The notes beneath the pieces are model-generated. The model was not told where the DNA came from, made no database searches, and saw nothing but the letters and a program-made list of their open reading frames with translations. This document shows, in pieces, positions 4,995-19,836 of a stretch of DNA of 64,000 bases (positions within the stretch are counted from its first letter, which is position 1; every line of letters begins with the position of its first letter). The position numbers were made by a program, and so were the translations under genes. The DNA is from Rhodobacter xanthinilyticus (lineage in GTDB: Bacteria; Pseudomonadota; Alphaproteobacteria; Rhodobacterales; Rhodobacteraceae). Location of the stretch: contig NZ_CP017781.1 in NCBI RefSeq assembly GCF_001856665.1, positions 806,001 through 870,000 on the forward strand. Reading direction: 5' to 3'.

Positions 4995-5013
4995 GTGGCA
5001 GCCCGTAGGGGAG
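4995..5013. repeat. Left attachment site (attL core)
   Basis: The 19 bases GTGGCAGCCCGTAGGGGAG are identical to 19818-19836, the CCA end and T-arm of the tRNA-Glu gene on the complement. A third identical copy (19913-19931) belongs to the second tRNA-Glu gene. The sequences diverge on both sides of the 19 bases. Confidence 0.85.
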
Positions 5014-5066
5014 CCACCGCCGTCACAGTGGCCCAAAATATGGGGTTTTCTCGCTGATTTCGCCAT

Positions 5067-5101
5067 TGTACACCATATGTGGTTGTACATTTTGGCGTAC
5101 A
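5067..5101. promoter_or_regulatory. Candidate integrase arm-binding sites at the left end
   Basis: 5084-5101 read on the complement is TGTACGCCAAAATGTACA, a dyad found with two differences, in the opposite orientation, at 19744-19761. The motif TACACCATATG at 5069-5079 recurs at 19645-19654 (one base shorter in context). Both sets sit 55-195 bp inside the att repeats, as expected for recombinase or excisionase arm sites. They also overlap the region where the integrase promoter should be. Confidence 0.5.
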
Positions 5102-5113
5102 TGGATTTCAGGC

Positions 5114-6457
5114 ATGAAACTCAAGGCAAACCAGATCGCGAACCTCGACATCGGGAAGCGGCACAGTGATGGCGGTGGACTCTACATCGAACTGCGCAAG
5201 GGCGGAACTGGGAGCTGGCTCTACCGGTACACCGTCAACGGTCGGGCGAACTGGATGAGCCTCGGGGCGTACCCTGAGGTCTCCCTCAGCCGCGCCCGTG
5301 AACTCGCCGCCGAGAAGCGGGGCCTCAAGTCTACGGGCGTCGATCCAGTGAAGGCCAAGCGCCAAGCCGCGCGCCAGTCGATCACCGTGGAAGAGGCGGT
5401 TCGCGAGTACTGGAAGCTGAAATGCACTGGCCTTGCCAAGGCGGAAGGCTGGATCAGAATGTTCGAGATTCACGCCTTTCCCAAGATCGGCAGCAAAGGC
5501 GTAGCCGATCTGACGTCTGAGGACGTCGTGCGGGTACTCAAGCCGCTCTGGAAGAGCAAGGACGCCGTTGGAGATGGTGAAACCGGATACCCCACGGCAA
5601 AGCGCATCCTGACCCGGCTGCGGCTCGTGCTGACGCACGCCAAGTTCAAGGACCCTCGCGTCGATCCGTTTATCATCGACGTGGCCCGCGAGGCGCTGCC
5701 CAAGGTCGAATGGGAAGAAGAACACCACCCGTCGCTGCCATGGGCGCAGGCTCCCGACCTTTGGGTTTCCATGCTCGACAGCGTGGCGGGAGAGGGGCTG
5801 CGCATGATCATTCTGACGGGGCTGAGGGTTGCTTGCGTGACGAAGGCTGAGTGGAGTGAAGTGGATTTCGATGCGGGCGTCTGGACCGTGCCTCGGGGCC
5901 GCGTGAAAGGCTGGAATGCAGGCTTCCGGGTGCCGCTGACGCGGCCAATGACCGATGTCCTAAAGCGCGTACAGAAGGCCACCGGCACGCAGAAGCACAT
6001 CTTCCACAGCCCGACCGCTTGGAAGAAGGGCTTCATCAGCGAGAACACGTGGAACAAGTGGCTAGAAGAGAACGGTTGGAAGGATGCCGATGGGCGACCT
6101 GCCACTGCCCATGGCTTCCGTTCCACCTTCCGAGACTGGGCTGCGAAACATGGCTGGGCGCGCGATCTGGCGGAGCACAGCATCCAGCACGTCTCTGCGA
6201 AAGGGACGAAGGTCGAGCGCGCATACTGGCGAGAGGATCGGCTGGAGGATCGGGCTGAGCTGATGATGGCGTGGAACGATTTCGTGGTCGGGAAGGAGGT
6301 GGCGCAGAGGATGGCTGCGGGCGCGCGTCAGCGCGCTCTGGACCGGCTGGACGAGGTCGTGCTGGCAGACGGGCGCACGCTCCGCGAGGCCGAGGAATGG
6401 GCGCGATACGATGGGTTGGAGGGCGAGGTCGACGCCAGTCAGCCTGCGGATGATTGA
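5114..6457 (+). CDS. int: P4-type tyrosine recombinase (integrase)
   Basis: 447 aa. The N-terminal DUF4102/arm-binding part is recognisable from DGGGLYIELRKGGTGSWLYRY (about residues 20-40) and LGAYPEVSLSRAREL. The catalytic part has the first Arg in LTGLRVACVTKAEW (near 238), the HxxR box in AHGFRSTFRDWA (near 333-336) and the nucleophilic Tyr in RAYWRED (near 370). It catalyses integration and excision at the tRNA-Glu attB. The ATG at 5114 gives the family's usual N-terminus MKL; an upstream in-frame start adds an unlikely leader. It is the only gene between attL and the rest of the island. Confidence 0.92.
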   Translation: MKLKANQIANLDIGKRHSDGGGLYIELRKGGTGSWLYRYTVNGRANWMSLGAYPEVSLSRARELAAEKRGLKSTGVDPVKAKRQAARQSITVEEAVREYWKLKCTGLAKAEGWIRMFEIHAFPKIGSKGVADLTSEDVVRVLKPLWKSKDAVGDGETGYPTAKRILTRLRLVLTHAKFKDPRVDPFIIDVAREALPKVEWEEEHHPSLPWAQAPDLWVSMLDSVAGEGLRMIILTGLRVACVTKAEWSEVDFDAGVWTVPRGRVKGWNAGFRVPLTRPMTDVLKRVQKATGTQKHIFHSPTAWKKGFISENTWNKWLEENGWKDADGRPATAHGFRSTFRDWAAKHGWARDLAEHSIQHVSAKGTKVERAYWREDRLEDRAELMMAWNDFVVGKEVAQRMAAGARQRALDRLDEVVLADGRTLREAEEWARYDGLEGEVDASQPADD

Positions 6458-6500
6458 TTGTGGCCCACGTTGTGCTCTGAGCAAGCGGGCGGCTGGGTGG

Positions 6501-6530
6501 TTGAAAAAGGCACGTTGTGCCCGCTATGGT
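6501..6530 (+). promoter_or_regulatory. Promoter with internal operator-like dyad
   Basis: TTGAAA (6501-6506) and TATGGT (6525-6530) are separated by 18 bp, ahead of the small gene at 6551. The spacer holds the dyad GGCAC-GTT-GTGCC (6509-6521). Its core CACGTTGTGC also occurs at 6466-6475, so two copies precede the gene. This suits autoregulation by the ribbon-helix-helix-like product. Confidence 0.5.
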
Positions 6531-6550
6531 GCCATCGGTGGAGGTGCCCG

Positions 6551-6940
6551 ATGGCGAAGACCAAGGCGGATAATGAAAAGCTCAAGGTCAGGACCGTGTC
6601 CTTGCCCCTCGATCTGTACGAGCGCCTGCAGCCAATCGTGGATGCGGCTGTCGCTGCAGGCGAGAATGAAGCATTCGTGCTGCGGCAAGTGGCTCGCATC
6701 GCCCTCCAGCGCCAATGGACCGCGACGTTTCTTGAGGTCCCCTCCGAAGTGACGAGAGAGCGGGATCGAGATCGCGTGACGCCCCGGTTGGCGCTTCCTC
6801 CGGCGATGGACGAGCAGGTCTTCGCGCTGTCTGAGTTCGCGGCGTTCAGCAGATGGTTCACGTTCGCCGTCGAGCGGTTCCTCGTGCAATATCGGAAGGG
6901 CGACCCTCACCTCTTCGACGTCCTGCCCCGCCGCAGTTGA
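6551..6940 (+). CDS. Ribbon-helix-helix-like small protein
   Basis: 129 aa. The stretch KVRTVSLPLDLYERLQPIV (about residues 10-28), followed by a helical segment NEAFVLRQVARIAL, resembles a ribbon-helix-helix DNA-binding fold; no exact family is recognised. The start is fixed by GGAGGT seven bases upstream, with the same frame open but unsupported earlier. It lies directly after the integrase in the same direction but has its own promoter-like sequence. It may control integrase or island genes; that is inference from position and fold. Confidence 0.65.
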   Translation: MAKTKADNEKLKVRTVSLPLDLYERLQPIVDAAVAAGENEAFVLRQVARIALQRQWTATFLEVPSEVTRERDRDRVTPRLALPPAMDEQVFALSEFAAFSRWFTFAVERFLVQYRKGDPHLFDVLPRRS

Positions 6941-7097: not shown

Positions 7098-7460
7098 CTA
7101 GGCCATTGCGGGGAACACGTGGCGGATTCCCTTGCGCTCTTTCAGGTCATCCAGCGCCGCTTTCAGCGCGTGCCCGGCGGAGTCGATTGCCGCCGTGGTG
7201 CTGGCAGGACTCCAGATAGACGCGCGGGCGATGGCAAGGCGACGGCGCGCGCTGGCAAGGTCCTGAAGACGTTCCAGACGGGCAAGCTCTTGCGCCTTGT
7301 CCATGAGCTGGGCCGTCAGCTTTTCAACGTCCTGCCCGATTGTCGCGTGGCGCAAGGCGTCCTTTGCCGCGCGTGCCGCCATGTTGACGCGCGGGCAGGA
7401 TATGCCGCGCCGTTCCAGCGCCTTCACCTCTTTCAGCATGGCTTGGATGTCACCGATCAT
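7098..7460 (-). CDS. Hypothetical coiled-coil protein of the island
   Basis: 120 aa, family not recognised. The sequence is almost entirely helical with heptad-like spacing (for example DVEKLTAQLMDKAQELARLERL), suggesting a coiled coil, and it has no signal or membrane segment. Start support is strong: AGAAGGAG precedes the ATG at 7460, and a promoter plus a 13-bp palindrome lie just upstream. It is convergent with the small gene at 6551. Between them (7059-7090) is a GC-rich inverted repeat and two copies of GTCAAGGGTC (7011 and 7049). Confidence 0.7.
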   Translation of the reverse strand: MIGDIQAMLKEVKALERRGISCPRVNMAARAAKDALRHATIGQDVEKLTAQLMDKAQELARLERLQDLASARRRLAIARASIWSPASTTAAIDSAGHALKAALDDLKERKGIRHVFPAMA

Positions 7461-7478
7461 GACTGACTCCTTCTGTTG

Positions 7479-7528
7479 ATCGTGTCACGATACTACACAA
7501 TACCAGAATGATTCGCTATCTAATTCAA
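7479..7528 (-). promoter_or_regulatory. Promoter and palindromic operator for the 7098-7460 gene
   Basis: On the complement TTGAAT (7523-7528) and TGGTAT (7500-7505) are 17 bp apart. The perfect dyad ATCGTG-T-CACGAT (7479-7491) overlaps the expected transcription start. The half sequence ATCGTGTCA recurs at 9503-9511, upstream of the other leftward island gene. Confidence 0.6.
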
Positions 7529-7672
7529 TGGGATAGCCGGATTCAACGCTAGCCGGTCGGCACGCTACAGACGGCGCGCCAGACGGTCGGGCGGCAGGGC
7601 CGGAGGCGAGGTGCTCAGAGCACGACCGCGCGCGCCAGCGCCCAGCCGGGCACCTCAGCGCGGGGGCAAATT

Positions 7673-7820
7673 CGGATTCGTCAAAACCGGAATATAAAAA
7701 TGGACTCCCGTAAAAACTGGTTCCCGTCAAAACAGTCGCGCGTCGAATCAAAAACGGTCGAGCGCCAAAACAAAAATGGCTGATCGTCAAAACAAAAAAT
7801 GGGCGATCACCAAAACGACT
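7673..7820. repeat. AT-rich imperfect direct repeat array (possible iterons)
   Basis: Seven copies of a core close to CGTCAAAAC start at 7679, 7709, 7725, about 7747, 7763, 7785 and 7808, spaced 16-30 bp (mostly 16 or 22). The copies are followed by short A-tracts and GG or GAC. The array is strikingly AT-rich for this element. Irregular spacing and non-unique spacers argue against CRISPR. Iterons or a DNA-unwinding element of a replication origin are the most natural readings. Confidence 0.6.
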
Positions 7821-7922
7821 GCGCGCCAGTTCGAGCGCGGGCTGCAGACAGTCGTGACCCGAGCACGAGCACGGCGACGGCGTGAGCCTCGATGCTGAGA
7901 GGCCATATGGGCAGATTGGCAA

Positions 7923-8470
7923 GGCCCGCTGACGCGGGCCACGACCACGCCACCAAGTCACCCAGCCACATTGCCAGCGTTGCCTCGGGCACAGGATTGG
8001 TCCCAGAGCATCGCACAGCGCGCCACAGACGCCCACTCAGGCCTGTGCCGCCATCCGTGACGACTGACCGCCACAGCGCCCCTGAGGGCCTTCCAGCACG
8101 TGCTCTGAGCGCGTCTGCGCGGCATGTCTGCGTGGTTTGAGCTGTGCGACTTGGATAGCAGCGGACTTGCTGCTGGCCCCGCGTCAGCGGGCATTGCGGG
8201 CTTGCCGGTGGCCCGCCGTTAGGCGGGTGTGGTGGCTGGAATGGTTGGCTGACGATCCGGGTAGGTAGGTGCTACGGGCAAGGCATGGCCCGCTGACGCG
8301 GGCAGACTGACCATGTCGCCAAGGCGGCTAGGCAGGCACGGACCAAGTCGGTGATCTGGTCAGGCGGGATGGCAGTAAGCCTGTGATTTGGGATGGGTAT
8401 GGATGGGCTGGGCCGGTGACGTGGGCGACTTCGGAAGGTGGGGTGATGGTGTTGGCCCGCGTCAGCGGGG
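7923..8470. repeat. Interspersed GC-rich hairpin repeat (four copies)
   Basis: The dyad GGCCCGC-TGAC-GCGGGC occurs at 7923-7940 and 8287-8303, and in inverted orientation (GCGTCAGCGGG core) at 8175-8192 and 8454-8470. A related arm pair GCCCGCC-GTTA-GGCGGG lies at 8211-8226. Each can fold as a 6-7-bp stem with a 4-nt loop. No coding sequence separates them. Confidence 0.6.
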
Positions 8471-8652
8471 CTTACCAGATTATGTGTATCTAGGCCTACC
8501 GACTACATGATAGTGTGTAGTGATCCCGTTGAATGCGGCGAATGTCTGATTCGGCACTAGGGATGGTGGCGATTCGGGGTGAATCTGGCTAGATGTGGGG
8601 GTGGCGGAAGGGGGCATTTTCTGGGGAATCGAGGGGGGCCTATCGGAATCCC

Positions 8653-8686
8653 CGAGGGTCCCGGCCTCTGCCGAAAGGGTCCCTCG
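8653..8686 (+). other. Stem-loop of unknown role
   Basis: CGAGGG pairs with CCCTCG, then a T-T mismatch, then CCC with GGG; the loop itself contains GGC-CTCT-GCC. The sequence GGGTCCC occurs repeatedly here and at about 8722 and 8957. The role is unknown. Confidence 0.35.
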
Positions 8687-8982
8687 ATTGGCTGGGAATG
8701 CCCTACCCCCTCCTGAATCTAGGGGGTCCCTCGGCCCCGGATGTGCCATTTCCCTGAATAGGTCACGTACAATGTGACGAAATGCAGCGGTCGGGCCAAT
8801 AGAATCAAGCGGTTGAATGCGATGCTGCGATGCAGCAAATTGGGTGCTGAAATCGGCACATCTCGCTCCGGCAAATCGTCACATCTGGTAGCGCGATGGG
8901 TCAGGAAGGGTGACCTATGTGTCTGGCGGAGGGTGGGGGCTGGTCCGAAACTGCAATGGGTCCCCGATGTGTGCGTCTCTGC

Positions 8983-9002
8983 GGAAATTTGATCAAATTT
9001 CC
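8983..9002. promoter_or_regulatory. 20-bp perfect palindrome
   Basis: A perfect inverted repeat with arms GGAAATTTGA / TCAAATTTCC, centred on TGATCA, lies between the non-coding region and the gene ending at 9096. It is AT-rich against its surroundings. It could be an operator or a recombination/partition site; no promoter clearly overlaps it. Confidence 0.45.
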
Positions 9003-9028
9003 AGAATTGGTGCAGCGGCGCACAGAGA

Positions 9029-9050
9029 AGCCGCCCCGAGGGAGGCGGCT
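9029..9050 (-). terminator. Probable terminator of the 9096-9479 gene
   Basis: AGCCGCC / GGCGGCT form a 7-bp stem with an 8-nt loop, followed on the complement by TTCTCT. Position just past the stop of the leftward gene supports the call. Confidence 0.5.
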
Positions 9051-9095
9051 GCCGGTAGCGTGAGGTTCGTGGAGGTCGGCTGAGGTTCTGGGAGG

Positions 9096-9479
9096 TCAGA
9101 TGAGGCCCGGCACCGGTTCGGTCACGAGGCAAACCTCCTGCCAATCCATGCTGCCATCCTCTTCATTGTGGTTCCATTCCACGATCAGCCTGAAGTCGAG
9201 CAGCGCGCCACGCGGGCAAACCTTTCGGACGGCTTGCATGAGGGCGTCGATGGCGCGGTCGACCTTGATCATGACCATGAAGCTGGGACCGTCGTCGAAT
9301 TGGTCCAGTGGGCGCTCGGCTCCAGTCGTCAGCTTGAAGCCATCTTGCTCCAGAATCTGGCACAGATCGTCACGGAAGCCTTCACTGACCAAAGGGCCGT
9401 AGACGCTGACTTCAAGCAGGACGGCGGTATCAGGACGGGACGGGTCTCCGAACGGGGTTGGCATTTCGTGGACGGGCAT
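9096..9479 (-). CDS. Hypothetical protein divergent from the methyltransferase
   Basis: 127 aa, no family recognised. It is acidic and looks globular, with alternating strand and helix segments (AVLLEVSVYGPLV; FMVMIKVDRAIDALMQAV; LLDFRLIVEWNHNEEDG). There is no recognisable helix-turn-helix, so it is not an evident controller protein of the restriction system. AAGGAG lies six bases before the ATG. It is transcribed away from the methyltransferase across a 136-bp divergent promoter region, which suggests it belongs to the same defence cargo, perhaps as an accessory factor. Confidence 0.65.
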   Translation of the reverse strand: MPVHEMPTPFGDPSRPDTAVLLEVSVYGPLVSEGFRDDLCQILEQDGFKLTTGAERPLDQFDDGPSFMVMIKVDRAIDALMQAVRKVCPRGALLDFRLIVEWNHNEEDGSMDWQEVCLVTEPVPGLI

Positions 9480-9615: not shown

Positions 9616-10803
9616 ATGACCAGTAGCACGCCTGTTTCGATGAATGTCGTCGACCTGTTCTCGGGAGCCGGGGGTATGTCCTATGGCTTCAAGGCGCATG
9701 GGGCGTTCAACATGATCGGGGCTGCCGACGCGGAGATCGGGAAGCCCACGGCTGGGGACGGGCGGCTGCAGTGCAACTCGACCTACCAGAACAACATCGG
9801 CATCGCGCCGACGCGGGTTAACCTCGCAGAGGTTGTGGCGGAAGACCTCCGCTCGGTTCTGGGTATTGGTGACAAGGCGGTCAATGTCCTGAGCGTCTGC
9901 CCGCCGTGCACTGGGTTCAGCCGTGCGAACCCGGACAACCATCTGCGCGACGACGCCCGCAACAGTCTGGTATCGCGGGCGGCGGATTTCGCTGTGGCAC
10001 TCGATGCTGACATCGTGGTCATGGAGAATGCCCGCGAGCTGATCCGGGGGAACTTCGTCCATCACTACCGGGCTTTCCGGCAGCGCTTGGAGGAAAGCGG
10101 CTACAACGTCTTCGGACGCAGCTACATGCTGAACCGGTTCGGACTGCCTCAGGTACGTGAACGGTCCATCGTGATCGCTGCAAAGGAACGCCTGCCGCTC
10201 TACACGCTGGAAAGCATGTGGGACGGCTGGACGGTGAAGGGCGAAGCCATGACCGTCCGTCGCGCGCTCGGGGTAGTGGCGAAAGCCCGCAAGGCCGACA
10301 AGCGGTTTCCGGGGTTCTCATCGGACGAGGTGCGCCGCAGGTTGGCCGCGATCCCCAAGGACGGCGGATCGTGGATGGACCTTCTCGAACACCCGGAGGC
10401 TGACGAGCTGATGACCGGTTCGATGAAGCGCATCGCTGCTGCCGGGAAGTTCGGATCGTACCCAGATGTCTACGGTCGCATGGCGTGGGATCGCCCGGCA
10501 CCGACCATCAAGCGGGAATGCGCGCACATCGGCAATGGTCGGTACGCCCACCCGGTCGAGGACAGGCTCTGCAGCATCGCAGAGATGGCGGTGTTGAACG
10601 GGTTCCCGTACGACTACAACTTCCGGGGGGTGGCCCTGTCAAACGTCTATCGCCACATCGGTGACGCCGTTCCTCCGATGATCTCTTACCAGTTGGCGCA
10701 CCTGTGCCGCTGGATGCTCACCAACGAGCAGCCCGGCATGCAGGAGCTTGTACTTCCCAGTACCAGCCTCAGGTCGACCGACCTTATCCGTGAGGCTGCC
10801 TGA
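9616..10803 (+). CDS. DNA (cytosine-5) methyltransferase
   Basis: 395 aa, complete. Ordered C5-methyltransferase motifs are visible: motif I DLFSGAGGMSYGF (about residues 13-25), motif IV VCPPCTGFSR with the catalytic Cys near 98, motif VI MENARE (ENV variant ENA), motif VIII RFGLPQVRERSIVIA (QxRxR), a variable target-recognition stretch, motif IX near RPAPTIKRE, and motif X IGDAVPP. It transfers a methyl group from S-adenosylmethionine to cytosine C5. AAAGGAG precedes the ATG at 9616. The probable endonuclease starts 3 bp after its stop, so the two form a type II restriction-modification unit. The recognition sequence is unknown. Confidence 0.9.
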   Translation: MTSSTPVSMNVVDLFSGAGGMSYGFKAHGAFNMIGAADAEIGKPTAGDGRLQCNSTYQNNIGIAPTRVNLAEVVAEDLRSVLGIGDKAVNVLSVCPPCTGFSRANPDNHLRDDARNSLVSRAADFAVALDADIVVMENARELIRGNFVHHYRAFRQRLEESGYNVFGRSYMLNRFGLPQVRERSIVIAAKERLPLYTLESMWDGWTVKGEAMTVRRALGVVAKARKADKRFPGFSSDEVRRRLAAIPKDGGSWMDLLEHPEADELMTGSMKRIAAAGKFGSYPDVYGRMAWDRPAPTIKRECAHIGNGRYAHPVEDRLCSIAEMAVLNGFPYDYNFRGVALSNVYRHIGDAVPPMISYQLAHLCRWMLTNEQPGMQELVLPSTSLRSTDLIREAA

Positions 10804-11540: not shown

Positions 11541-11544
11541 CCGC

Positions 11545-11895: not shown

Positions 11896-11899
11896 GTCT

Positions 11900-14800
11900 C
11901 TACCCCCGCCCGAACGCGGCGAGGGTCTCCTGTACATCCTTCAGGGCCGGAATCTTGACATACCGATCCTTCTTCTGCAGGGGCACGCGCAGGTCGATCA
12001 CGTCGAACTGGTCGTCGCGGCACAGAGCATCCGCGTCCTGACCGGCATCGCGCCGATACCCGCCGAAGTAGGTGATCAGCCGCTTGTTGTCGCCGCCGTT
12101 TGCCTCGGGGCCGAGCAGCTTCGCCATAGCCGTCTTGACCTCCGCGCTCAGGTTGCCCTTTTCCGTTTCCGGGTGGAGGATCGAGACAAGGTGGCTCCGG
12201 GCAACGTAGGTCGGTTCGTCCTCGTGGAACCGATAGTAGAATTCCGCTCCACCCGTCTCCCGACCTGCCAGTTCCCCGCTTTCCAGAATGGCGGCAAGGC
12301 GCGCCATCGGACCACGGAGACCCATCCCGACCTGCTGACGCAGGCCCTCAGTAACAATCGGACTGCGAAGGCTGTCCCACGTCAAATCCACCGCCTCAGG
12401 GTTCCAGTTCGTCAGCTCATGAACCATGGCTTCGAGACCGCCATTTTCCATCTGATCGTCGATGGCCCCGAAGAACGCGGCGTCCTGCTTGCGCGTCGGC
12501 AGACAAGTCAGCACGAGGAACCGGCGCGCATCCTCTGCGTCGGTCGGGATCATCCATTCATCGTTCGAGATGAACACGAGGTTCACGTAGTTGGGTCGTT
12601 CAACCACGTTGGCGAACTTGCCCTCGATCTGCAGCGTGTCCGAGCTGATCAGGTCCTTGATCACTCCAGCGTCACTCTTCGCGCCGCCCCAGAACGATTC
12701 CTCGCACACCATAAAAATCTTTCCATCCATGTGTGCGTTGAAGTTCCCGGTCAGGTGCCGCCCGTTGCTGATCTTGATCGCGGATGCACCGATGGCGCGG
12801 CGAACCCAGTCAAAGACCTTGCTCTTGCCAGTACCCTGTTCACCCTGCACCGCAATCGCGCTGGGAATCTTCACACCCGGACGAGCAAACAGGGACGCGA
12901 GCCACGTCATGACCCAGTTGAACAGGTTCTTGTCACCGCCACAGAGCTGATCGCGGATGTGATCGCGCAAGAGCGACCAGTCGCCCGGCTTGGGCAGCAC
13001 GGCGAAGCCAGTCCACAGGTTGTACGCGCCGCGAGCCTCTGCTGCCTTCGCCTTCACGGGATCAGGCTCAAAGCAGGTGTCGAAGTAGGTCGCACGCTGA
13101 CGCGTGTACACGAACACTTCCGCAGGCTTGATCGTCTTGGACTTTGCCTTTTCGCCTTCACCCTCCCAGTACGTGACGCCACGGTTGATGTAGAGCTTGC
13201 CCAGCGTTGCCTCCTTCCAGAGACGGACAGGCTCGCCGCGACCGGACCGGATCGCCCACTTGGCTTCCCCGTCGATCACGACATAGCTGGCGCGCCGGTT
13301 CAGGTTGGCGACGATCTGGTCGCGGATGGTCGTCCGCATAACCGCCTCGGCATTGTTCATCTTGGGGTCGATGCCGTAGTGCTTGTACAGCTTGGGGCTG
13401 TCAGCGGGTCGAACCATGAAGCCGTCAGCATCGACGAGGCGCTCATCGTAGAGCGGCGCAAGGATGCTCTCCTTGCTCTCTTCCTTCACAGGGTCGACCT
13501 GCCGATCCCGAACGCGCTCTTCGAGCTGACGAATGACGTCCTCGGCTGCCTCTGCAACGAAGGCCTCGGCATCTTCGGCGTCGATGCCATCGTCGACCAG
13601 CTTGGAAATTGCGACCTGGGCCGCGTCAGCGGCGATGGTCGTCTTCCCGTCGGCGGTCACCAGATGCTGTCGCAGAATAGCACGCGCGGCTTCGATAGCC
13701 GCTTCTTCTTCGCGCGCGGCTTCCTCTTCCGCCGCGCGCCGATCCTCGATGTACTCGCGCGCCCGCACCACGCGGTCGATCAGGTAGTCGTCGGTTGCAT
13801 ACCGCCGTTCCACGCGGTCGTCCTTGCAGGGAGCGGCAAGGATGACGTCGCGCAGGGTTTCGATCAGTTCGGTCTCGTCGCCATCGGGGTTCTCGCGCCA
13901 CCACGAGCAAGCCGCACGGTTGATCGTGTCGTCGAACCCGCGCTTGCCATCGCCGTCGCCGATCAACTCGCACCACGCTTCGAAGCCGAAACCGGTTGCC
14001 GTGCCGTTGCCGAGCGCGACACGTTCAGCCCGACGCTCCTTCTTCACGCGCGCCGTCGTCTCCTTCATTGCCGCGTAGGCGAGGTCTTCCAACCATTCCG
14101 GGGCATCCGCGATTTCGCATTCCCACGGAGCGCGGCCTGCCGCCCAACGATAGAAATTGCCGGTATGGTGGATCGAGGGCGCGGCGATGATCTGCCCGCC
14201 TTCACCGCGAATGTCGACGCCGGGTGCGATCTTGGACGCGGTGTTGCGGATCGTCCGGGAAGACCGGAAGATGTAATGCGCGCCGCCGGAGCCGCTGATG
14301 CTGTGCGGGGTCGGGGGCAGTTCGCCGTGGCGTGCAACCAGCTCAGCCAGAGCCGCCGCGCCGCTCTCGCCGTCGAGGTCGAGGACGAACAGGCCGCAGC
14401 CCTCGGGGAGCACGATGGACACGTTGCGCACAAAGTTGACGTGCTTGTAGAGCCGCCCCTTGTCGGCATTCTTGCTCGGGGGATAGCGGCCCTTACCAGT
14501 CCAGAACGCGACGATCTGGTCGGGGTCCGAGCTGGCACGCGACTGCCAACCAGCGCCAAGAGGGGACTTGGCATCGCCAGCGATGCTCATACCGCGACCC
14601 GTGACCGGGTGGATTGCATACGCATCCGCGACGTGCAGGTCGCACTCGGCATACCGAAGCGCATAGGCCAACGTCATGACATTGTGGTCGGCTGCGTCGG
14701 GAATATCCACATGCACACGCTTGAGACCGGCGCGGATCAGGGTCTCCCGAGCAAAGTCGAGCTGGTCCGACACTTCTACGGCAGCGCGCTGACGCGCGTT

Positions 14801-15010
14801 CTCGGCCCGTTCAGTGTGATACAGAGACGCCTTGGGGGGCAGCCCGAAAGCGCCAACACCGGGCGGCAAGGGAAGCCGGTCCTCAGGAATCTTCGGCTTC
14901 TGGACGACCTTCCTGCTGATCTCGCGCGAAGGCTCGACGCCGTCGTCGACGTCTTCGACCGCTTCCAGCGCGGCGAGGATTTCATCGGTGAAGTTGAAAG
15001 CGGTGGTCAC
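11900..15010 (-). CDS. Primase-polymerase / superfamily 3 helicase replication protein
   Basis: 1036 aa. The N-terminal half is a bifunctional primase-polymerase domain: PLGAGWQSRASSDP (150-163), FVLDLDGES (208-216, catalytic acids) and SGSGGAHYIFRS (239-250). A charged helical linker follows. The C-terminal half is a phage/plasmid SF3-type helicase with Walker A GEQGTGKS (near 727), Walker B in FMVCEESFWGG, and the sensor segment FISNDEWMIPTDAEDARRF. It should prime and unwind the island's own DNA. The start is GTG, overlapping the upstream stop (GTGA). It is the last gene of the leftward operon and ends beside the GACCCAGC repeats. Confidence 0.88.
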   Translation of the reverse strand: MTTAFNFTDEILAALEAVEDVDDGVEPSREISRKVVQKPKIPEDRLPLPPGVGAFGLPPKASLYHTERAENARQRAAVEVSDQLDFARETLIRAGLKRVHVDIPDAADHNVMTLAYALRYAECDLHVADAYAIHPVTGRGMSIAGDAKSPLGAGWQSRASSDPDQIVAFWTGKGRYPPSKNADKGRLYKHVNFVRNVSIVLPEGCGLFVLDLDGESGAAALAELVARHGELPPTPHSISGSGGAHYIFRSSRTIRNTASKIAPGVDIRGEGGQIIAAPSIHHTGNFYRWAAGRAPWECEIADAPEWLEDLAYAAMKETTARVKKERRAERVALGNGTATGFGFEAWCELIGDGDGKRGFDDTINRAACSWWRENPDGDETELIETLRDVILAAPCKDDRVERRYATDDYLIDRVVRAREYIEDRRAAEEEAAREEEAAIEAARAILRQHLVTADGKTTIAADAAQVAISKLVDDGIDAEDAEAFVAEAAEDVIRQLEERVRDRQVDPVKEESKESILAPLYDERLVDADGFMVRPADSPKLYKHYGIDPKMNNAEAVMRTTIRDQIVANLNRRASYVVIDGEAKWAIRSGRGEPVRLWKEATLGKLYINRGVTYWEGEGEKAKSKTIKPAEVFVYTRQRATYFDTCFEPDPVKAKAAEARGAYNLWTGFAVLPKPGDWSLLRDHIRDQLCGGDKNLFNWVMTWLASLFARPGVKIPSAIAVQGEQGTGKSKVFDWVRRAIGASAIKISNGRHLTGNFNAHMDGKIFMVCEESFWGGAKSDAGVIKDLISSDTLQIEGKFANVVERPNYVNLVFISNDEWMIPTDAEDARRFLVLTCLPTRKQDAAFFGAIDDQMENGGLEAMVHELTNWNPEAVDLTWDSLRSPIVTEGLRQQVGMGLRGPMARLAAILESGELAGRETGGAEFYYRFHEDEPTYVARSHLVSILHPETEKGNLSAEVKTAMAKLLGPEANGGDNKRLITYFGGYRRDAGQDADALCRDDQFDVIDLRVPLQKKDRYVKIPALKDVQETLAAFGRG

Positions 15011-15423
15011 TGCTTGACCTCCACGGCACGAATGTTCCGCCCGAGGATGCGACAGGCCATCTTGTCGATTTCCTCGGCCATGGAGATCATACCTACGAGA
15101 CGGGCGATCTCTTCATCGTGGTCTTCCACCGTCATCAACGCGCTGCGATGGAGTTCCGCCGTGAGGCGGATAAGTTCGCCTTCCTCGAAGTCGTTGAACG
15201 GCTCACCCAGACGTCCGCTATCGAAAAGGCTGGACTTCGGTTTTTCGCCACCGCGCGCCGTCACGTAGTCGCGAAACTTTTCATTCGCGACACAAATCGC
15301 GTCAATACCAGTGCGCCGATCAGCAGGATCGGGGGCGGCAACCGGCGCGCGCGGCCCACGGCGCTCACGGCGAGCGCGGTTGCCCTGATTGGTGGTGGTG
15401 GTGGTGTTGGTTTCCGGCATCAT
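15007..15423 (-). CDS. Small protein translationally coupled to the primase
   Basis: 138 aa, family unknown. A Thr- and Arg-rich disordered N-terminus (about 30 residues) precedes a helical, acidic C-terminal half containing EEIARLVGMISMAEEIDKMA. AAAGGAG stands before the first of two adjacent ATGs. The stop overlaps the primase GTG, so the product may help the primase, for example as a loader or accessory subunit; this is inference from the coupling only. Confidence 0.65.
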   Translation of the reverse strand: MMPETNTTTTTNQGNRARRERRGPRAPVAAPDPADRRTGIDAICVANEKFRDYVTARGGEKPKSSLFDSGRLGEPFNDFEEGELIRLTAELHRSALMTVEDHDEEIARLVGMISMAEEIDKMACRILGRNIRAVEVKQ

Positions 15424-15434
15424 TTGCTCCTTTA

Positions 15435-15552
15435 GGGTTGCGTCTTCGTGGTGGAATGTGTTACCTTATGCAAGCGTCAAGACCGCAAACGCGGTAGCTC
15501 CTTCTGCGTTGCACCCCCGGCCTGTCCATCAGCAGGTCGGGGTTTCTTTTTT
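15435..15552 (+). ncRNA. Candidate small RNA opposite the replication operon leader
   Basis: A strand-specific intrinsic terminator lies at 15515-15552: CCCCGGCCTG pairs with CAGGTCGGGG (one G-T pair) over an 8-nt loop, followed by TTTCTTTTTT. No protein gene on this strand ends here. Upstream are a weak promoter-like pair (TTGCGT about 15435, TACCTT about 15458, 18 bp apart) and a hairpin ACCGC-AAAC-GCGGT (15482-15495). This gives a transcript of roughly 80 nt antisense to the leader of the 138-aa/primase unit. Satellite P4 uses a small RNA (CI) to control its replication operon, so a similar role is possible. Confidence 0.45.
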
Positions 15553-15627
15553 CTACCCGATGTCAGGCGTTCTGTCCAGAAGCTATTGAAAAACAACAGT
15601 TTTTCGGCTTCAAGCCGACTTTAAGGC

Positions 15628-15936
15628 TTACGCCGCCGCGTCGGTTTCGTCCGTGATCACCCAGTTCTTCATCACGTGAGCGACATCGGCGGCGGATTTC
15701 AGATCGGCACGGTCGCCCTTCAAGCCAAAAGCCGGGCAGACGGTCACGCGCCCCTCAGCGATCCACTGGTCGATCTCGGCGCGGAGGCGTTCGTTCTCGG
15801 CGGCGATCTCTTCGTCCGACCAGTACAGTTCGCGGATCGCGGCCCCACGGCGGCGAGCCATGTCTCGCTCCTTCTTGGCGAGCGCGGCCTCCTTGGTGCG
15901 CTTGTTAAGTTCGATCAGGTGAAGTGCGCGGGCCAT
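15628..15936 (-). CDS. Hypothetical protein of the island operon
   Basis: 102 aa, unknown family. The N-terminal half is strongly basic and helical (ELNKRTKEAALAKKERDMARRR) and is followed by a helical stretch SDEEIAAENERLRAEIDQWIAEGRV, so a coiled coil or DNA-associated role is conceivable. The start overlaps the stop of the upstream gene by one base (TGATG), showing translational coupling. Downstream, before the 15423 gene, lie 204 bp with two A/T-tailed hairpins and the candidate small RNA. Confidence 0.65.
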   Translation of the reverse strand: MARALHLIELNKRTKEAALAKKERDMARRRGAAIRELYWSDEEIAAENERLRAEIDQWIAEGRVTVCPAFGLKGDRADLKSAADVAHVMKNWVITDETDAAA

Positions 15937-16301
15937 CAGTACGTCCCCACGCGCCCTGCGACGAAGGGATGCAGCAGTCCAAGCGGGTCGATGGCCTTGA
16001 AGGCGGAGCGGAAGTCACCCGCCAGAAGGTCGAGATCGAGTTCCTCTTCGGCCTCGGGGAAGGGCGCGGTCTTGGTCCAAACGCCACCGCGAAGCTGGAA
16101 CCCGACCGCGCGGGCGACGATGTGGGCGTACTTCGCGCCGATGAGTTCGATCAACTCGGCCTGATCGACGTTGACCGTGATCCGGCGCGTCGGACTCTGA
16201 ATTTCGCGGAGGGCGTCACCGACGAGGGCGGTCAGCTCCTTGATGATCTGCTGTTCGGTGACCGCCGTCATGGTGGCGGCAATGTGCGGGTCAAGCGTCA
16301 T
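15936..16301 (-). CDS. Hypothetical protein of the island operon
   Basis: 121 aa, no family recognised. The ATG at 16301 (MTLDPHIAATM) is chosen because the in-frame sequence before it is Pro/Arg-rich and overlaps the next gene's region. The protein is mixed alpha/beta and acidic toward the end (EAEEELDLDLLAGDF). No signal or membrane segment is seen. It is coupled to the downstream 102-aa gene. Confidence 0.6.
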   Translation of the reverse strand: MTLDPHIAATMTAVTEQQIIKELTALVGDALREIQSPTRRITVNVDQAELIELIGAKYAHIVARAVGFQLRGGVWTKTAPFPEAEEELDLDLLAGDFRSAFKAIDPLGLLHPFVAGRVGTY

Positions 16302-16338
16302 AGTTCTGCTCTGTTCTGGTTGGGTTGGAGGTGGAAGG

Positions 16339-16557
16339 TCAGGCGATGGTGGGTTCGTCGGGCGGGGCATCGTCGACGGGTTCTGCCGGAGGGCGCGGGC
16401 GGGACTTCGTCGCGTAGAAGTCCAATCCGTCGTTGGTCGAGACCACCGGGATTCCGGCGTCAAACAGCGCCTTGGCCTTGTCGGCCTTGGCCTCGATCTC
16501 GGGGTGATTGAACATGCCGCGCACGTTGGGGCGACCGGCGTAGACGTATCCGCTCAT
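16339..16557 (-). CDS. Small hypothetical protein of the island operon
   Basis: 72 aa, unknown. It starts MSGYVYAGRPNVRG and ends in a Pro/Asp-rich, probably disordered tail (PPAEPVDDAPPDEP). AAAGGAG lies nine bases before the ATG, so it is likely translated. Nothing suggests its role beyond operon membership. Confidence 0.6.
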   Translation of the reverse strand: MSGYVYAGRPNVRGMFNHPEIEAKADKAKALFDAGIPVVSTNDGLDFYATKSRPRPPAEPVDDAPPDEPTIA

Positions 16558-16581
16558 GGCGAATTTCTCCTTTAAGGTGTG

Positions 16582-16833
16582 TCAGGCGAACCGGACGAGT
16601 TTCACGTGCTCGTCCGTGGCGGATTTGAAGCCCGCGCGGGTCTTGAGGGCGTCGATTTCGCGGGCAATCTGGCTGGCGCGGAGCTTCGGCCCTTCGACGA
16701 GCGCCCGGAACATCGAGTTCATGCAGTTCAGGCGGTCCTTGAGGACGCGATCCTCGGGAAAACGGACTGCCATCCAGTGGCTGGCCTGCGGGTATTTGAT
16801 GATGAGGTGGCGGACTGCTTCAATACGGGTCAT
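16582..16833 (-). CDS. Small hypothetical protein of the island operon
   Basis: 83 aa, unknown family. The ATG at 16833 begins MTRIEAVRHLIIKYP; the longer in-frame extension upstream would read through a stable intergenic hairpin and is rejected. It is basic and helical (LKDRLNCMNSMFRALVEGPKLRASQIAREIDAL), which could suit a small nucleic-acid-binding protein, but no motif proves it. Confidence 0.6.
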   Translation of the reverse strand: MTRIEAVRHLIIKYPQASHWMAVRFPEDRVLKDRLNCMNSMFRALVEGPKLRASQIAREIDALKTRAGFKSATDEHVKLVRFA

Positions 16834-16885
16834 GGTGGTACTACTGGATGTGGTTGGTGGGTCTCTGGGCGCGAGATGTCGGGGT

Positions 16886-16924
16886 GGGCCGCACCCCCAG
16901 AAGACCCCAACAAGGGTGCGGCCC
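16886..16924 (-). terminator. Long intercistronic stem-loop (attenuator or processing site)
   Basis: GGGCCGCACCC and GGGTGCGGCCC form a perfect 11-bp stem around a 17-nt loop in the 133-bp gap between two operon genes. It lacks a clear T-run on the complement, so partial termination or RNA stabilisation is more likely than full termination. Confidence 0.5.
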
Positions 16925-16966
16925 AACGAAGGGGCGTTTCGCCCACCTCGTGTTCTTGTGCTGGCG

Positions 16967-17320
16967 TCAGGCGAAGCGTTCGCGCAGATCGGGCAGAACG
17001 CCCCCTGCAGCCTCCAGCAGCTTTGCTGCGGCTTCTTCACGCATAGCGCGCTCACGCGCGCCCCGAGCCGCTGCCTGCTCGTTCAAGCGGACTTCATCCT
17101 CGACCAGTTCTGCGACCTCGCGCATGCGCAGCCCTTCGGCAGCGTTGAGCGCTTCCTTGACCTTCACCTCGCGGCGGAGCCAGCCGAGCAGCACATCCAT
17201 CGGAGGTCGGTCACCTTTTTTCGCGGAGATCAGCGCGCGATGCGCAAAGATCGTGCAAGCTCGCGGGTCGTTCAGGAGGGTGTCGAGCAGGGCGGGAGTC
17301 GGGGGCTTTTCGACAGTCAT
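16967..17320 (-). CDS. Hypothetical protein of the island operon
   Basis: 117 aa, unknown. Predominantly helical, with Glu/Arg/Ala-rich stretches (VAELVEDEVRLNEQAAARGARERAMREEAAAKLL) suggestive of a coiled coil. Its ATG overlaps the upstream gene's stop by four bases (ATGA), so translation is coupled. Immediately downstream is the 11-bp stem-loop. Confidence 0.65.
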   Translation of the reverse strand: MTVEKPPTPALLDTLLNDPRACTIFAHRALISAKKGDRPPMDVLLGWLRREVKVKEALNAAEGLRMREVAELVEDEVRLNEQAAARGARERAMREEAAAKLLEAAGGVLPDLRERFA

Positions 17321-17844
17321 GCGGAATTCTTGAGGTTGCGGAGATCGGCGGCTTCGGCGGTGGTCAGGGGCGTGGCGAGCGCGAGCAGCTCCAGTCGCTC
17401 CAGCCGCGTCACGGGGTGCCGACCTCCCAGCAGATAGACGCTGTCGGCGGCGGCAAAGGCCTCACGCGGGTCTTCCAGATCGGCTGCGGCTTCGTCGAAC
17501 ATGTTGACTAGATCGTTCCAGATCACGTCGTTCACGACACGCGCGGGGTATTCGAGGATCGCCTCGATGCGGGGAAGGATGTCGGCAGAGGCGTGAGCAG
17601 GCGGGCCGCGACGGGCCAGTTCGGCGGGACTCTCGTCTGCGATCCGCCCGATCTCGATGGCGAGGCGCACGGCAGACTTTGACACCACCGAGGCTTCCGA
17701 CAGGGCGGTGCGCAGCACCGACGCCGGATCGCCGGATGCCCTTGCCTCTGCCATAAGCCGCTTGAGAGCGCGCGACGACTGCGCAACGGTCGACATCAAG
17801 TGCTTCAACGCCGGGCGGCTTTGGAGGACGGTCTTACCGGTCAT
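17317..17844 (-). CDS. Hypothetical protein coupled to the terminase small subunit
   Basis: 175 aa, unknown family and largely helical. It starts within the stop codon of the terminase small subunit gene (ATGA overlap) and itself overlaps the next gene by four bases. The tight coupling to terS suggests a packaging- or helper-interference role, which is inference only. No cysteine motif, signal peptide or membrane segment is visible. Confidence 0.65.
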   Translation of the reverse strand: MTGKTVLQSRPALKHLMSTVAQSSRALKRLMAEARASGDPASVLRTALSEASVVSKSAVRLAIEIGRIADESPAELARRGPPAHASADILPRIEAILEYPARVVNDVIWNDLVNMFDEAAADLEDPREAFAAADSVYLLGGRHPVTRLERLELLALATPLTTAEAADLRNLKNSA

Positions 17845-18332
17845 TGTTTCACCACCGAGAACGATTCAAGAGTCTGGATCAGGTTGTCGGTTCGGACCGC
17901 CCGCTGTTTGTCCGCCGCCCGCAGGGAGTGCAGTTGGGCCAGCACGCGGCTGGAGATCGTCGTGAGCACATCGCGGGCCTGCGCAGCTTCGCGGGCGAGG
18001 CCATTTCCGTCACAGGCCCGAACCAGCTCAGCCACATTGTCCAGAACGCCGTTGAGCAGCTCTTCGAAGCCGTCGAAGACATCGTCTTCGAAATCATCCC
18101 ACCGACTGGCCCGCTCCCGTTTCAGGTAGTCGATCCGGGCCTTGACGTGCGGCTGGCGCAGGAGGTTGTTCCCCATCTGCGCGGCAGATTTTCGCGCGCC
18201 AAAGGCTGCCTGAATTGCCCGCGACTGGGTCACGGCCCCGGTCGCCATGGCCTGACAGAACTTCTCGTGCTTTTCGTTCGGCAGGGGCGTCTCGCCCCGG
18301 TACGAGTCTACGTCGATCCCACGCGGAGCCAT
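17841..18332 (-). CDS. Phage terminase small subunit-like protein (TerS)
   Basis: 163 aa. Residues of about 15-70 read as a terminase small subunit (Terminase_2-like) domain: EKHEKFCQAMATG, SRAIQAAFGARKSAAQMGNNLL and RQPHVKARIDYLKRE match the family pattern of a QxKF start, a TxAAxxAGY-like helix, and NPxVxxxI. The C-terminal half is helical and acidic, as expected for the oligomerisation/partner region. TerS recognises the packaging site on phage DNA. Without a large subunit in the element, it would have to work with a helper phage's TerL, as in phage-inducible islands. The ATG at 18332 is preferred to a TTG nine bases upstream. Confidence 0.78.
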   Translation of the reverse strand: MAPRGIDVDSYRGETPLPNEKHEKFCQAMATGAVTQSRAIQAAFGARKSAAQMGNNLLRQPHVKARIDYLKRERASRWDDFEDDVFDGFEELLNGVLDNVAELVRACDGNGLAREAAQARDVLTTISSRVLAQLHSLRAADKQRAVRTDNLIQTLESFSVVKQ

Positions 18333-18333
18333 T

Positions 18334-18585
18334 TCAGCCAAACTCCGCGCGCATGAGGACCGTCTGGACCTCGTTCTCGGTGACAGGCGTGGGATTGCAA
18401 TCCGGCGTCGTGAGAGGCGCGATCAGGTCCCGCACCTCGGTGCTGGTCAGGCGCGCGGCGCGCAGGGCACGGACGAGCTTGTCACCGTCGCCCAACGCGG
18501 CAGCGACGTCATTCTCGCGGGCGAGGACCCGGCAGGCGTGATGAGAGCTGAGAGCCAGACGGCGAAGGGCGTCGATAGCGTGCAT
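18334..18585 (-). CDS. Small hypothetical protein upstream of terS
   Basis: 83 aa, unknown. Helical in its first half (MHAIDALRRLALSSHHACRVLAREN). It ends one base before the terS ATG and begins two bases after the stop of the gene above it, so it is embedded in the operon. No domain is recognisable. Confidence 0.6.
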   Translation of the reverse strand: MHAIDALRRLALSSHHACRVLARENDVAAALGDGDKLVRALRAARLTSTEVRDLIAPLTTPDCNPTPVTENEVQTVLMRAEFG

Positions 18586-18587: not shown

Positions 18588-19040
18588 TCAGGCCAGCCCG
18601 TGCTTCCGCGCGTAATCGAGTTTTGCCTTGCCTTCGAGCTTGGACAGGACATTCACATGGTCGGAGGCCACCAGCTTCTCGGGCGACGTGCCGGTCAGGC
18701 CGTGCTGCCGCGCGTAGGTCATGCGTTCGGACGGGCGCAAGTTGGCGATTGCATCCTCGTGCCCCCGCGCAACGCGGGCAGCGTCTTCCTTCGCCTTGAG
18801 GCGGGCGGCGACCGAGGGGATCGCCCGCAGCTCGTTCACGGCCTTCGAAAGGTCGACATCCATATCTGCCAGCACGTGGAGCTTCACGCTTTCGATCTGC
18901 ACAATTTCGTCAGGCGTGAGGTCGTTCAGCCCCAGCTCATGGGCCGCGACGACGGCGATCTTGTTCGTGGCCTCGACGAGGGCGGTCACGCTGGACGGCC
19001 CGAGTACTTCGACAATGGTTTGAATAGACTGGCTGGTCAT
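18588..19040 (-). CDS. Hypothetical protein with a short internal repeat
   Basis: 150 aa, family unknown. A short motif is repeated near the C-terminus: MTYARQHGLTG and LDYARKHGLA, about 30 residues apart. The N-terminal part is hydrophobic-helical but not membrane-like. The ATG at 19040 lies three bases after the stop of the regulator gene, so it is the second gene of the operon. Confidence 0.65.
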   Translation of the reverse strand: MTSQSIQTIVEVLGPSSVTALVEATNKIAVVAAHELGLNDLTPDEIVQIESVKLHVLADMDVDLSKAVNELRAIPSVAARLKAKEDAARVARGHEDAIANLRPSERMTYARQHGLTGTSPEKLVASDHVNVLSKLEGKAKLDYARKHGLA

Positions 19041-19043
19041 TGT

Positions 19044-19613
19044 TCAGGCTGCTTCTTTCTGGAGGTGGCGGAGGGTGGCGAGCTGGGGGACGGCGAAGGC
19101 GTGGCCCCAATGCCGCCACGCGTCGGCGGATTGCGGCAGTTCGGAATGGTCGCCGCCGAAGACGTAAAGCATGACGCTCGGATGGATCAGAGCGAGGTCG
19201 AGCAGCACGCCAACGTCGGCTTTGAATGCTTCGGCCCAGAGCGCACCGATCAGCCCCGCGTGCAGTGCACCGCGCACCGCGAGGTACCGGGAAAGCTCAA
19301 GCTCGGTCAGGCAGGCCCGCAGCTCGGCTGCGCGGCGTTCACAGTCGGCCCCAAACGGAATGCCCGGCTCGGCATCACGACGTTGGGCGTCGATCTGGAG
19401 AATGGCGAAGGCTTCGTTGCTGGTGCAGCCGCGCTTACGCGCGCCCCGGAGCCTCACAATAATCTCATCGGGCCGCATGAGGGCCGGATAGCGGCTCCGC
19501 GCGAAGTGGGGGATGGCACCGCTGCGCAGCAACCAGCCGCGCGCAGCAGCTTCGCTGACGTTCAGCGCAGATGCCACGTCGTAGAGGCTAATGGTCATGC
19601 GTTCGTGGGTCAT
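19044..19613 (-). CDS. Helix-turn-helix regulator, first gene of the island operon
   Basis: 189 aa. Residues about 6-55 (SLYDVASALNVSEAAARGWLLRSGAIPHF, then MRPDEIIVRL) look like an AlpA/MerR-type helix-turn-helix domain. The remaining 130 residues are unassigned and contain hydrophobic helices. AGGGAAG precedes the ATG at 19613. A consensus-like promoter lies just upstream, and the gene is nearest to attR. In P4-like elements AlpA-type factors control excision and early genes; a similar role is inferred. Confidence 0.65.
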   Translation of the reverse strand: MTHERMTISLYDVASALNVSEAAARGWLLRSGAIPHFARSRYPALMRPDEIIVRLRGARKRGCTSNEAFAILQIDAQRRDAEPGIPFGADCERRAAELRACLTELELSRYLAVRGALHAGLIGALWAEAFKADVGVLLDLALIHPSVMLYVFGGDHSELPQSADAWRHWGHAFAVPQLATLRHLQKEAA

Positions 19614-19639
19614 GGTCTTCCCTGATTTACTGTAGCATA

Positions 19640-19668
19640 AAATTACACCATATGGCTGAAAATGTCAA
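19640..19668 (-). promoter_or_regulatory. Sigma70-type promoter of the leftward island operon
   Basis: On the complement TTGACA (19663-19668) and TAATTT (19640-19645) are 17 bp apart, 26 bp before the regulator's ATG. The spacer contains CCATATGG, and the overlapping sequence ACACCATATG is repeated at the left end of the island (5069-5079), so a recombinase or repressor could share the site. Confidence 0.7.
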
Positions 19669-19743
19669 GGTGACCAACAGAACGGTTCATGGATGGGCGG
19701 TTGGATGGGAGGGAGCGCGATTACGGTCAGTCGACCGTGCAGG

Positions 19744-19761
19744 TGTACACCAAAACGTACA
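19744..19761. promoter_or_regulatory. Candidate integrase arm-binding dyad at the right end
   Basis: TGTACACCAAAACGTACA is itself a dyad (TGTAC...GTACA) and matches 16 of 18 bases of the inverted copy at 5084-5101. It lies 57 bp inside the right att repeat. Confidence 0.5.
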
Positions 19762-19817
19762 TGGCCCCAGCCCGTTCGGGCGGAAGGCTTTTCAGATCAA
19801 CATCTTGGGGAAGGTAA

Positions 19818-19836
19818 GTGGCAGCCCGTAGGGGAG
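19818..19836. repeat. Right attachment site (attR core) in tRNA-Glu
   Basis: Identical to the 19 bases at 4995-5013. It covers the CCA end, acceptor 3' strand and the start of the T-arm of the tRNA, so integration leaves the tRNA gene intact. Confidence 0.85.

Follow-up and report, generated by a model that had tools for sequence, protein, structure and literature searches.

A probable phage satellite in tRNA-Glu of Rhodobacter xanthinilyticus and its DNA hairpins shared with DSS3P8-like phages

What kind of element occupies the tRNA-Glu gene of Rhodobacter xanthinilyticus, and what might carry it between cells? The window that we analyzed is a 64,000-nucleotide stretch (G000:C1:806001-870000) of this 3.78-Mb genome, and the element is a 14.8-kb island at window positions 4995-19836. 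A first-pass annotation had described an integrase, attachment (att) repeats in tRNA-Glu, a primase-polymerase/helicase, a terminase small subunit (TerS) and a restriction-modification (R-M) pair; profile matches and 19-bp repeats confirmed all of them (Table 1). Judged from sequence alone, the island is probably one of an as yet unnamed family of phage satellites in Rhodobacteraceae-type bacteria, and its packaging by a helper phage appears likely. Its most surprising feature is a small DNA hairpin that recurs throughout such islands and in one group of phages. A literature search, made largely without subscription papers, returned among the matches listed no description of a Rhodobacterales satellite family and no account of these hairpins.

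Island anatomy and related islands

The 19-bp direct repeats bound the island, with the right copy at the end of tRNA-Glu. In two of 18 congeners (G016 and G012) the flanks are joined without the island, the left flank adjoining the tRNA-Glu side, which identifies it as an insertion. A minus-strand operon runs from 19613 to 11900 with the primase as its last gene, and the R-M pair sits on the plus strand. The integrase, R-M pair, primase-polymerase/helicase and TerS score above curated cut-offs, and the remaining 13 of the 18 window proteins scanned fall below them; most of the small genes were initially said to resemble nothing recognizable, and Pfam and PHROG searches likewise gave the small genes no family above cut-off. 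The same 18 proteins include no relaxase and, in PHROG searches, no head or tail family apart from TerS. None of the 24 matches to the phrog_2 large terminase in 12 island-bearing genomes falls within an island (other large-terminase families were not searched), and there is no head or tail family among the best 25 of 59 PHROG families matched by 130 open reading frames from 10 islands. The proposed lack of a large terminase and structural genes is borne out by these searches.

The identification of TerS holds up in matches to PF03592 and phrog_51. Fold searches recovered a typical small-terminase DNA-binding domain followed by a divergent C-terminal half, for which (residues 85-166) the fold-search listing gave no small-terminase match, an absence that proves nothing. 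As a single-sequence query, the window TerS had no hit in phage, plasmid or viral-contig sequences. Counting its own genome, it had hits in three of the 18 genomes searched within the genus and in 11 of 394 across the family, and a seven-row profile extended the latter count to 18 of 394. We excluded the proteins of G043, G134, G169, G120 and G001, which by eye resemble ordinary prophage TerS, from the island count. Fourteen of the 16 islands compared were located via TerS and two via the primase, so TerS frequency is biased in this set.

The first-pass annotation had anticipated an undescribed satellite family of 12-16-kb islands with one gene order, an idea supported by islands in tRNA genes of several genera, in which o2, TerS and the primase recur in that order. 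The common layout begins with a small regulator and proceeds through o2, TerS and one or two further small genes to the primase-helicase, often a serine recombinase, and then cargo. Relatives occupy tRNA-Glu, -Leu, -Phe and -Gly genes in other genomes of the family, as separate islands rather than parts of full prophages or plasmids, and island DNA has no close plasmid match. Paired att sites delimit 10 elements of 14.8 (window), 14.7, 14.8, 25.0, 7.8, 14.8, 17.8, 12.9, 15.5 and 15.1 kb, eight of which measure 12.9-17.8 kb; the 25-kb element (G053) may be a composite. Other ends (G176, G277a, G334, G346, L097 and L166) were placed by eye, and the relatives' genes were called with a simple script. 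In the window, as in each relative for which both genes could be placed, TerS precedes the primase. The layout varies at other points: the integrase of the window lies at the end opposite the operon, and G316 has an o2-like stretch 5 kb away from TerS and no recognized tyrosine integrase. The Pseudooceanicola antarcticus island (L097) has a primase 64% identical to that of the window and similar small genes.

The closest comparison is with the G006 island, which occupies the same site, tRNA-Glu beside recJ. The small genes are 65-100% identical and TerS 93%, and the integrases only 44%. Among the six small operon genes (15007..17320), only 15007-15423 lacks a match in G006. In place of the window R-M pair, G006 carries an M.Eco57I-like methylase and a candidate PLD-domain endonuclease (below the Pfam cut-off), and in place of the primase a 721-aa protein without a Pfam match. 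Cargo elsewhere includes PP2C plus kinase, a DarT-like protein, Septu PtuA and, by eye, an HsdM-like frame in L166. These differences suggest mostly a defence-hotspot pattern, with the R-M pair as an exchangeable module. The cargo of the G233 island (L020:5156-9008) is a CheB/CheR-PAS-histidine kinase protein with a response-regulator-like gene and is not obviously defensive. L166 (IMGVR_UViG_2757320866_000005) is a family island (TerS profile 2.6e-18) at the end of a viral-classed contig, possibly adjoining a prophage.

Could the island instead be the remnant of a prophage that kept its integrase, primase and TerS? Its phage-like genes are single, and G390 demonstrates that such islands do decay: by eye, its TerS frame (L024:6281-7402) is truncated and continues into other, primase-like sequence within a 7.8-kb island. 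However, many islands contain this same reduced gene set with its frames open and both att sites present, and the phrog_2 large terminase was found in none of them. These observations disfavour the explanation, which we regard as very improbable. In a second alternative, the element would be an integrative defence island whose integrase and primase serve to mobilize its own DNA, which is not packaged, and whose TerS-like gene now serves as a regulator. This would fit the divergent C-terminal half of TerS and the family's modest profile scores, with just two of 13 members reaching the Pfam TerS model and five of 13 reaching phrog_51 at E 0.01. It would also fit the islands of P. antarcticus, G063 (L351) and G006-C38 (L213/L214), in which no TerS was found at the profile threshold. 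By contrast, the position of TerS upstream of the primase is kept across diverged islands, element sizes are mostly near 15 kb, and the scanned window proteins lack a relaxase; we consider this second alternative distinctly unlikely. Under the packaged-satellite interpretation, the integrase and an excision function would shuttle the island in and out of tRNA genes and the primase-polymerase/helicase would replicate it after excision. By binding a packaging site in the island DNA, TerS would then deliver that DNA to the large terminase and procapsid of the helper, and the R-M pair would serve as exchangeable anti-phage cargo.

DNA hairpins in the islands

A search for words shared by the 16 islands returned one motif as the top word at each length from 10 to 16. 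The best 10-mer (82 copies in islands versus two in 278 kb of flanks) is the core of a hairpin with a GC stem and a four-nucleotide TNAC loop, present on both strands and also inside genes. Strictly defined hairpins number 112 in the islands (234 kb) versus one in the flanks (278 kb) and 0.65 in shuffled islands. Among all four-base-loop hairpins with a stem of at least five pairs, TNAC accounts for 145 of 466 in islands versus five of 506 in flanks. At least one TGAC hairpin occurs in each of the 16 islands and at least one strict hairpin in 15, the exception being the 4.6-kb fragment G346. Furthermore, 112 of 191 GC-TNAC-GC octamers in islands are extended by three further pairs, with 18 different arm triplets, versus one of 57 in flanks, about the chance level. 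This covariation indicates that pairing was kept rather than one fixed sequence.

Read on the opposite strand, the loop is C-GTNA-G, a class that we take to be unusually stable in single-stranded DNA; a folding program gave -5.6 to -9.6 kcal/mol for six examples. Do the hairpins act instead in RNA, as transcript ends or as stability or processing elements? T-runs follow a few island copies, and many phage copies lie, by eye, in short intergenic gaps. Yet 47 of the 145 hairpins fall within integrase, primase or resolvase genes, in more than one frame and split into 24 sense and 23 antisense, so the constraint is not on one transcript strand. These named genes are as densely loaded (47 in 73.7 kb) as the remainder (98 in 159.9 kb), and the average flank is not T-rich. 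With the arm orientation in two phages described below, these observations make a role in RNA unlikely, although it deserves serious weight. No hairpin was counted in 8.6 kb of R-M, TerS and histidine-kinase genes.

The exact 14-mer CCCGCTGACGCGGG occurs in 44 of 198 family genomes (70 copies versus 27 for the reversed control), and in six island-bearing genomes 14 of its 21 copies lie within islands by hand count. On its own it is a poor finder, being single in 76 of 80 viral contigs among the matches listed; G316, G390 and L166 have no copy and yet hold four, seven and two strict hairpins. The 14-mer was also rejected as a terminator, T-runs following some copies and not most. As a check outside the discovery set, we retrieved 20 regions that together cover 21 of the remaining 49 copies. 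Eighteen lacked island genes and had one or two strict hairpins each. The only two with at least four were exactly those carrying satellite genes: L351 (12 hairpins; o2, primase and integrase), a region with two 14-mers in close proximity, and L358 (four; o2, TerS, primase and resolvase). Hairpin density, not 14-mer presence, discriminates islands. Two further elements of G006 came to light via the hairpin, each with a relative of the 72-aa protein of the window: one on C38 (L213:7300-20000 and L214:1-4500) with a primase, a 1104-aa gene, a serine recombinase and o2-like and integrase-like genes, and one on C16 (L212:2400-7500) with a recombinase and a 1070-aa gene.

In the window, five TNAC hairpins lie in a non-coding region (7461..9095) that is mostly conserved in the G006 island and is a candidate origin or packaging region. 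At 7678-7816 this region holds about seven CGTCAAAAC-like repeats spaced by about 22 bp, partly conserved in G006, which could be an origin or a protein-binding array.

Table 1. Mapped features of the island, in window coordinates
Feature	Position	Strand	Basis or remark
attL	4995..5013	none	19-bp direct repeat of tRNA-Glu 3' end
Tyrosine integrase, arm-binding type	5108..6457	+	PF13356, PF00589, PF22022 above cut-off; 44% identical to G006 integrase
TNAC hairpin in int	5626..5639	+	hairpin scan
TNAC hairpin in int	5932..5945	+	hairpin scan
TNAC hairpin in int	6321..6336	-	hairpin scan
Small protein	6551..6940	+	91% identical in G006 island; no Pfam/PHROG match
Small protein	7098..7460	-	96% identical in G006 island; no Pfam/PHROG match
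Non-coding region	7461..9095	none	repeats and hairpins
TNAC hairpin, non-coding region	7923..7940	+	hairpin scan
TNAC hairpin, non-coding region	8178..8191	-	hairpin scan
TNAC hairpin, TAAC loop, different stem	8212..8227	-	hairpin scan; outside strict set
TNAC hairpin, non-coding region	8288..8303	+	hairpin scan
TNAC hairpin, non-coding region	8456..8469	-	hairpin scan
127-aa protein	9096..9479	-	identical in G006 island
C5-cytosine DNA methyltransferase, R-M cargo	9622..10803	+	PF00145; PADLOC MTase_II
SmaI-family type II restriction endonuclease, R-M cargo	10806..11540	+	PF17411, 37 bits (cut-off 27.3); PADLOC REase_II
Intergenic, CGACCCAGC-type repeats in both orientations	11541..11899	none	repeat search
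Primase-polymerase/SF3-type helicase	11900..15010	-	PF09250, PF19263, PF05272
TNAC hairpin in primase gene	12331..12344	+	hairpin scan
TNAC hairpin in primase gene	13093..13106	+	hairpin scan
TNAC hairpin in primase gene	13620..13633	-	hairpin scan
TNAC hairpin in primase gene	14597..14610	+	hairpin scan; outside strict set
TNAC hairpin in primase gene	14785..14798	+	hairpin scan
Six small operon genes	15007-15423, 15628-15936, 15936-16418, 16339-16557, 16582-16983, 16967-17320	-	none above family cut-off
TNAC hairpin, TCAC loop	15155..15170	-	hairpin scan; outside strict set
TNAC hairpin, TCAC loop	17046..17061	+	hairpin scan
175-aa protein, downstream of TerS	17317..17844	-	kept beside TerS in G006, G233, G346
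TerS	17841..18341	-	PF03592, phrog_51, SF6 TerS DNA-binding-domain fold
83-aa protein	18334..18585	-	present in G006 and L097 too
o2 protein	18588..19040	-	relatives precede TerS in other islands; 83-aa gene in between in this island
First operon gene, possible helix-turn-helix regulator/excisionase	19044..19613	-	conserved in G006, G053, G346, G390; weak phrog_2907 excisionase match, E 0.087
TNAC hairpin, TTAC loop	19430..19443	+	hairpin scan
attR	19818..19836	none	within tRNA-Glu 3' end

DSS3P8-like phages as possible helpers

Which phages share the hairpin? Strict hairpins reach 4.79 per 10 kb in the islands, 2.30 in DSS3P8, 2.20 in RcXuper, 2.60 in MD18 and 1.50 in five IMG/VR relatives (L163-165, L167 and L168); the phage counts are 23 for 100 kb of DSS3P8, 11 and 13 for 50-kb pieces of RcXuper and MD18, and 16 for 107 kb of the IMG/VR relatives. 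Shuffles in 500-base blocks gave 0.05-3.00 per set. The nine sets outside this group have zero or one strict hairpin each, even where a set is 924 kb long. DSS3phi2 and RcapMu reach 0.20 and 0.26 per 10 kb and 62 IMG/VR contigs with more distant primases 0.01, and no strict hairpin was found in RDJL Phi1, SIO1, CcrColossus (50 kb; presumably a CbK-type phage), P4, four regions with other large terminases or two regions resembling gene transfer agents (GTAs). The prophage controls L209-L211 were picked by large-terminase match, their genes uninspected.

Because the islands and these phages share the hairpin signature, a virulent DSS3P8-like siphovirus is the most likely helper, and we put the chance that this group carries the islands at about even. 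The hosts of the group are Ruegeria, Phaeobacter and Rhodobacter. Over 97-99% of its length, the G277a primase shares 40-41% identity with the primases of six DSS3P8-like phages, and the G006 primase matches phrog_10537, a DSS3P8-like primase family, at 5e-65; the matches of the window primase to phages (371 records) and plasmids (19 records) are all partial. TerS matches DSS3P8-like phages in its N-terminal half alone (96%, E 2.1e-9, 98 columns), and a pattern search found no o2 relative in viral contigs. The sole phrog_2 match of the window genome lies in a cluster that by eye resembles RcGTA in gene order; no prophage of this genome is therefore apparent as the helper, in keeping with one that arrives from outside. 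RcGTA itself was rejected as the carrier, the two GTA-like regions having no strict hairpin. In the available part of PMC7643831, MD18 and DSS3P8 belong to the same family as CbK phages. The terms hairpin, palindrom- and satellite do not occur in the main text of the MD18 paper.

The orientation of the hairpins in whole phage genomes bears on what they do. In both DSS3P8 (47 strict hairpins) and RcXuper (37), the loops mostly point in one direction over one half of the genome and in the opposite direction over the other. The best antipodal splits, at 129 and 125 kb, agree with 36 of 47 and 30 of 37 hairpins and were matched by nine and six of 2000 sign shuffles; the split was chosen on the same data, and the two phages are related and hence not independent. 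Gene strand, in blocks set by hand from the annotation, fits less well (32 and 24 hairpins), and a plus-strand gene block near 82-98 kb contains minus hairpins only (2/2 and 3/3). On these small numbers, arm orientation favours a link to replication forks over a role in transcripts. In the mixed-orientation zone of DSS3P8 (55152-56427; L349:5152-6427), a tRNA-Phe lies beside a gene annotated as an integrase; some islands use tRNA-Phe.

A replication role for the hairpins is possible, somewhat short of even in our estimate. They would form on single-stranded DNA during replication and be recognized by a helper-type replication factor, with priming as a first guess. Alternatively, the hairpin could be a self-mark by which a nuclease or repair system of the phage tells its DNA from that of the host, mimicked by satellites. 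Its rarity in host flanks and density in the islands and one phage group would suit such a mark, but a mark would not require orientation by arm, and we judge it improbable. The replication role can be extended to a whole-genome hairpin code, in which a virulent phage clade and its satellites carry covarying mini-hairpins (GC stem, TNAC/GTNA tetraloop) within genes and on either strand, spaced by about 2 kb in the satellites and about 4 kb in the phages, where they follow the replication arms. A primase or partner would read them on single-stranded DNA so that DNA bearing them is preferred in infection, and satellites would prosper through having them. This code remains speculative, and we hold it with clearly less than even confidence.

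In addition to the islands without a detected TerS and the intergenic phage hairpins, which would also suit transcript ends, several results weigh against our interpretation. A tblastn search at 1e-3 of the window proteins, primase included, matched nothing in the DSS3P8, RcXuper and MD18 pieces, and the N-terminal TerS domain shared with these phages is common in many others. The hairpins were discovered post hoc, and those of the islands show no clear arm pattern. A looser count also finds three in P4 (11.6 kb) and two in a prophage-type region of G001 (20 kb).

If hairpins do steer replication, the action of helper machinery on satellite DNA becomes directly testable with cultured phages, and a true hairpin code would allow satellites to be found and matched to helpers from their sequences.

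Comparison with known satellites

The family proposed here would add to Rhodobacteraceae-type bacteria a satellite with an early TerS and exchangeable defence cargo. It resembles the staphylococcal islands (SaPIs) and other phage-inducible chromosomal islands (PICIs) in its size of about 15 kb, specific att site, integrase, primase module, defence cargo and lack of structural genes, as well as in TerS, which some of them carry. The consulted part of PMC6092414 places terS after the replication genes of PICIs, in the order regulator, pri/rep, ori, interference and terS. In the window, as first proposed, the order differs: TerS, near the regulator end, precedes the primase, the operon ends in the primase, and the R-M pair is on the opposite strand. 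The hairpin signature and likely virulent helper also set the island apart. No Pfam regulator scores above cut-off in the window, where AlpA, Stl and Rpr were not recognized, and the first operon gene has a weak excisionase match (E 0.087).

The PICMIs of Vibrionaceae share with our islands a DUF5906-type primase and small size, and also a virulent helper, which for the islands is a proposal. According to the accessible sections of PMC10803314, PICMI115 lacks terS and the definition of PICMIs includes a position adjacent to fis, with an int-alpA-primase arrangement, whereas our islands are integrated in tRNA genes and TerS is present in most of those found. P4-like satellites share the arm-type integrase, the primase-helicase and the defence hotspot (PMC9122126, in the part consulted). 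However, Psu, Sid and delta are unmatched among the 18 window proteins in PHROG and Pfam, and strict hairpins are absent from P4, whose annotation also lists no TerS. Among capsid-forming PICIs, the comparison is with L100 of Hyphomonadaceae bacterium PRO2, an element near tRNAs and an integrase that may be a capsid-forming island or a small prophage. It encodes a relative of the window primase but also capsid and gpA-type terminase genes, neither of which was found in the window island, where TerS is the only packaging gene detected. VEIMEs and tycheposons, mentioned in PMC10803314 and PMC11389934, likewise integrate into the genomes of marine bacteria and are presumed to spread inside phage particles. 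Finally, the DSS3P8-like siphoviruses (DSS3P8, RcXuper, MD18 and vB_RpoS-V10) share with the islands the hairpin signature (in the three tested), the phrog_10537 primase (G006 island) and the TerS DNA-binding domain. They differ as 146-149-kb phages with full structural gene sets, and we propose them as helpers and not as relatives of the whole island.

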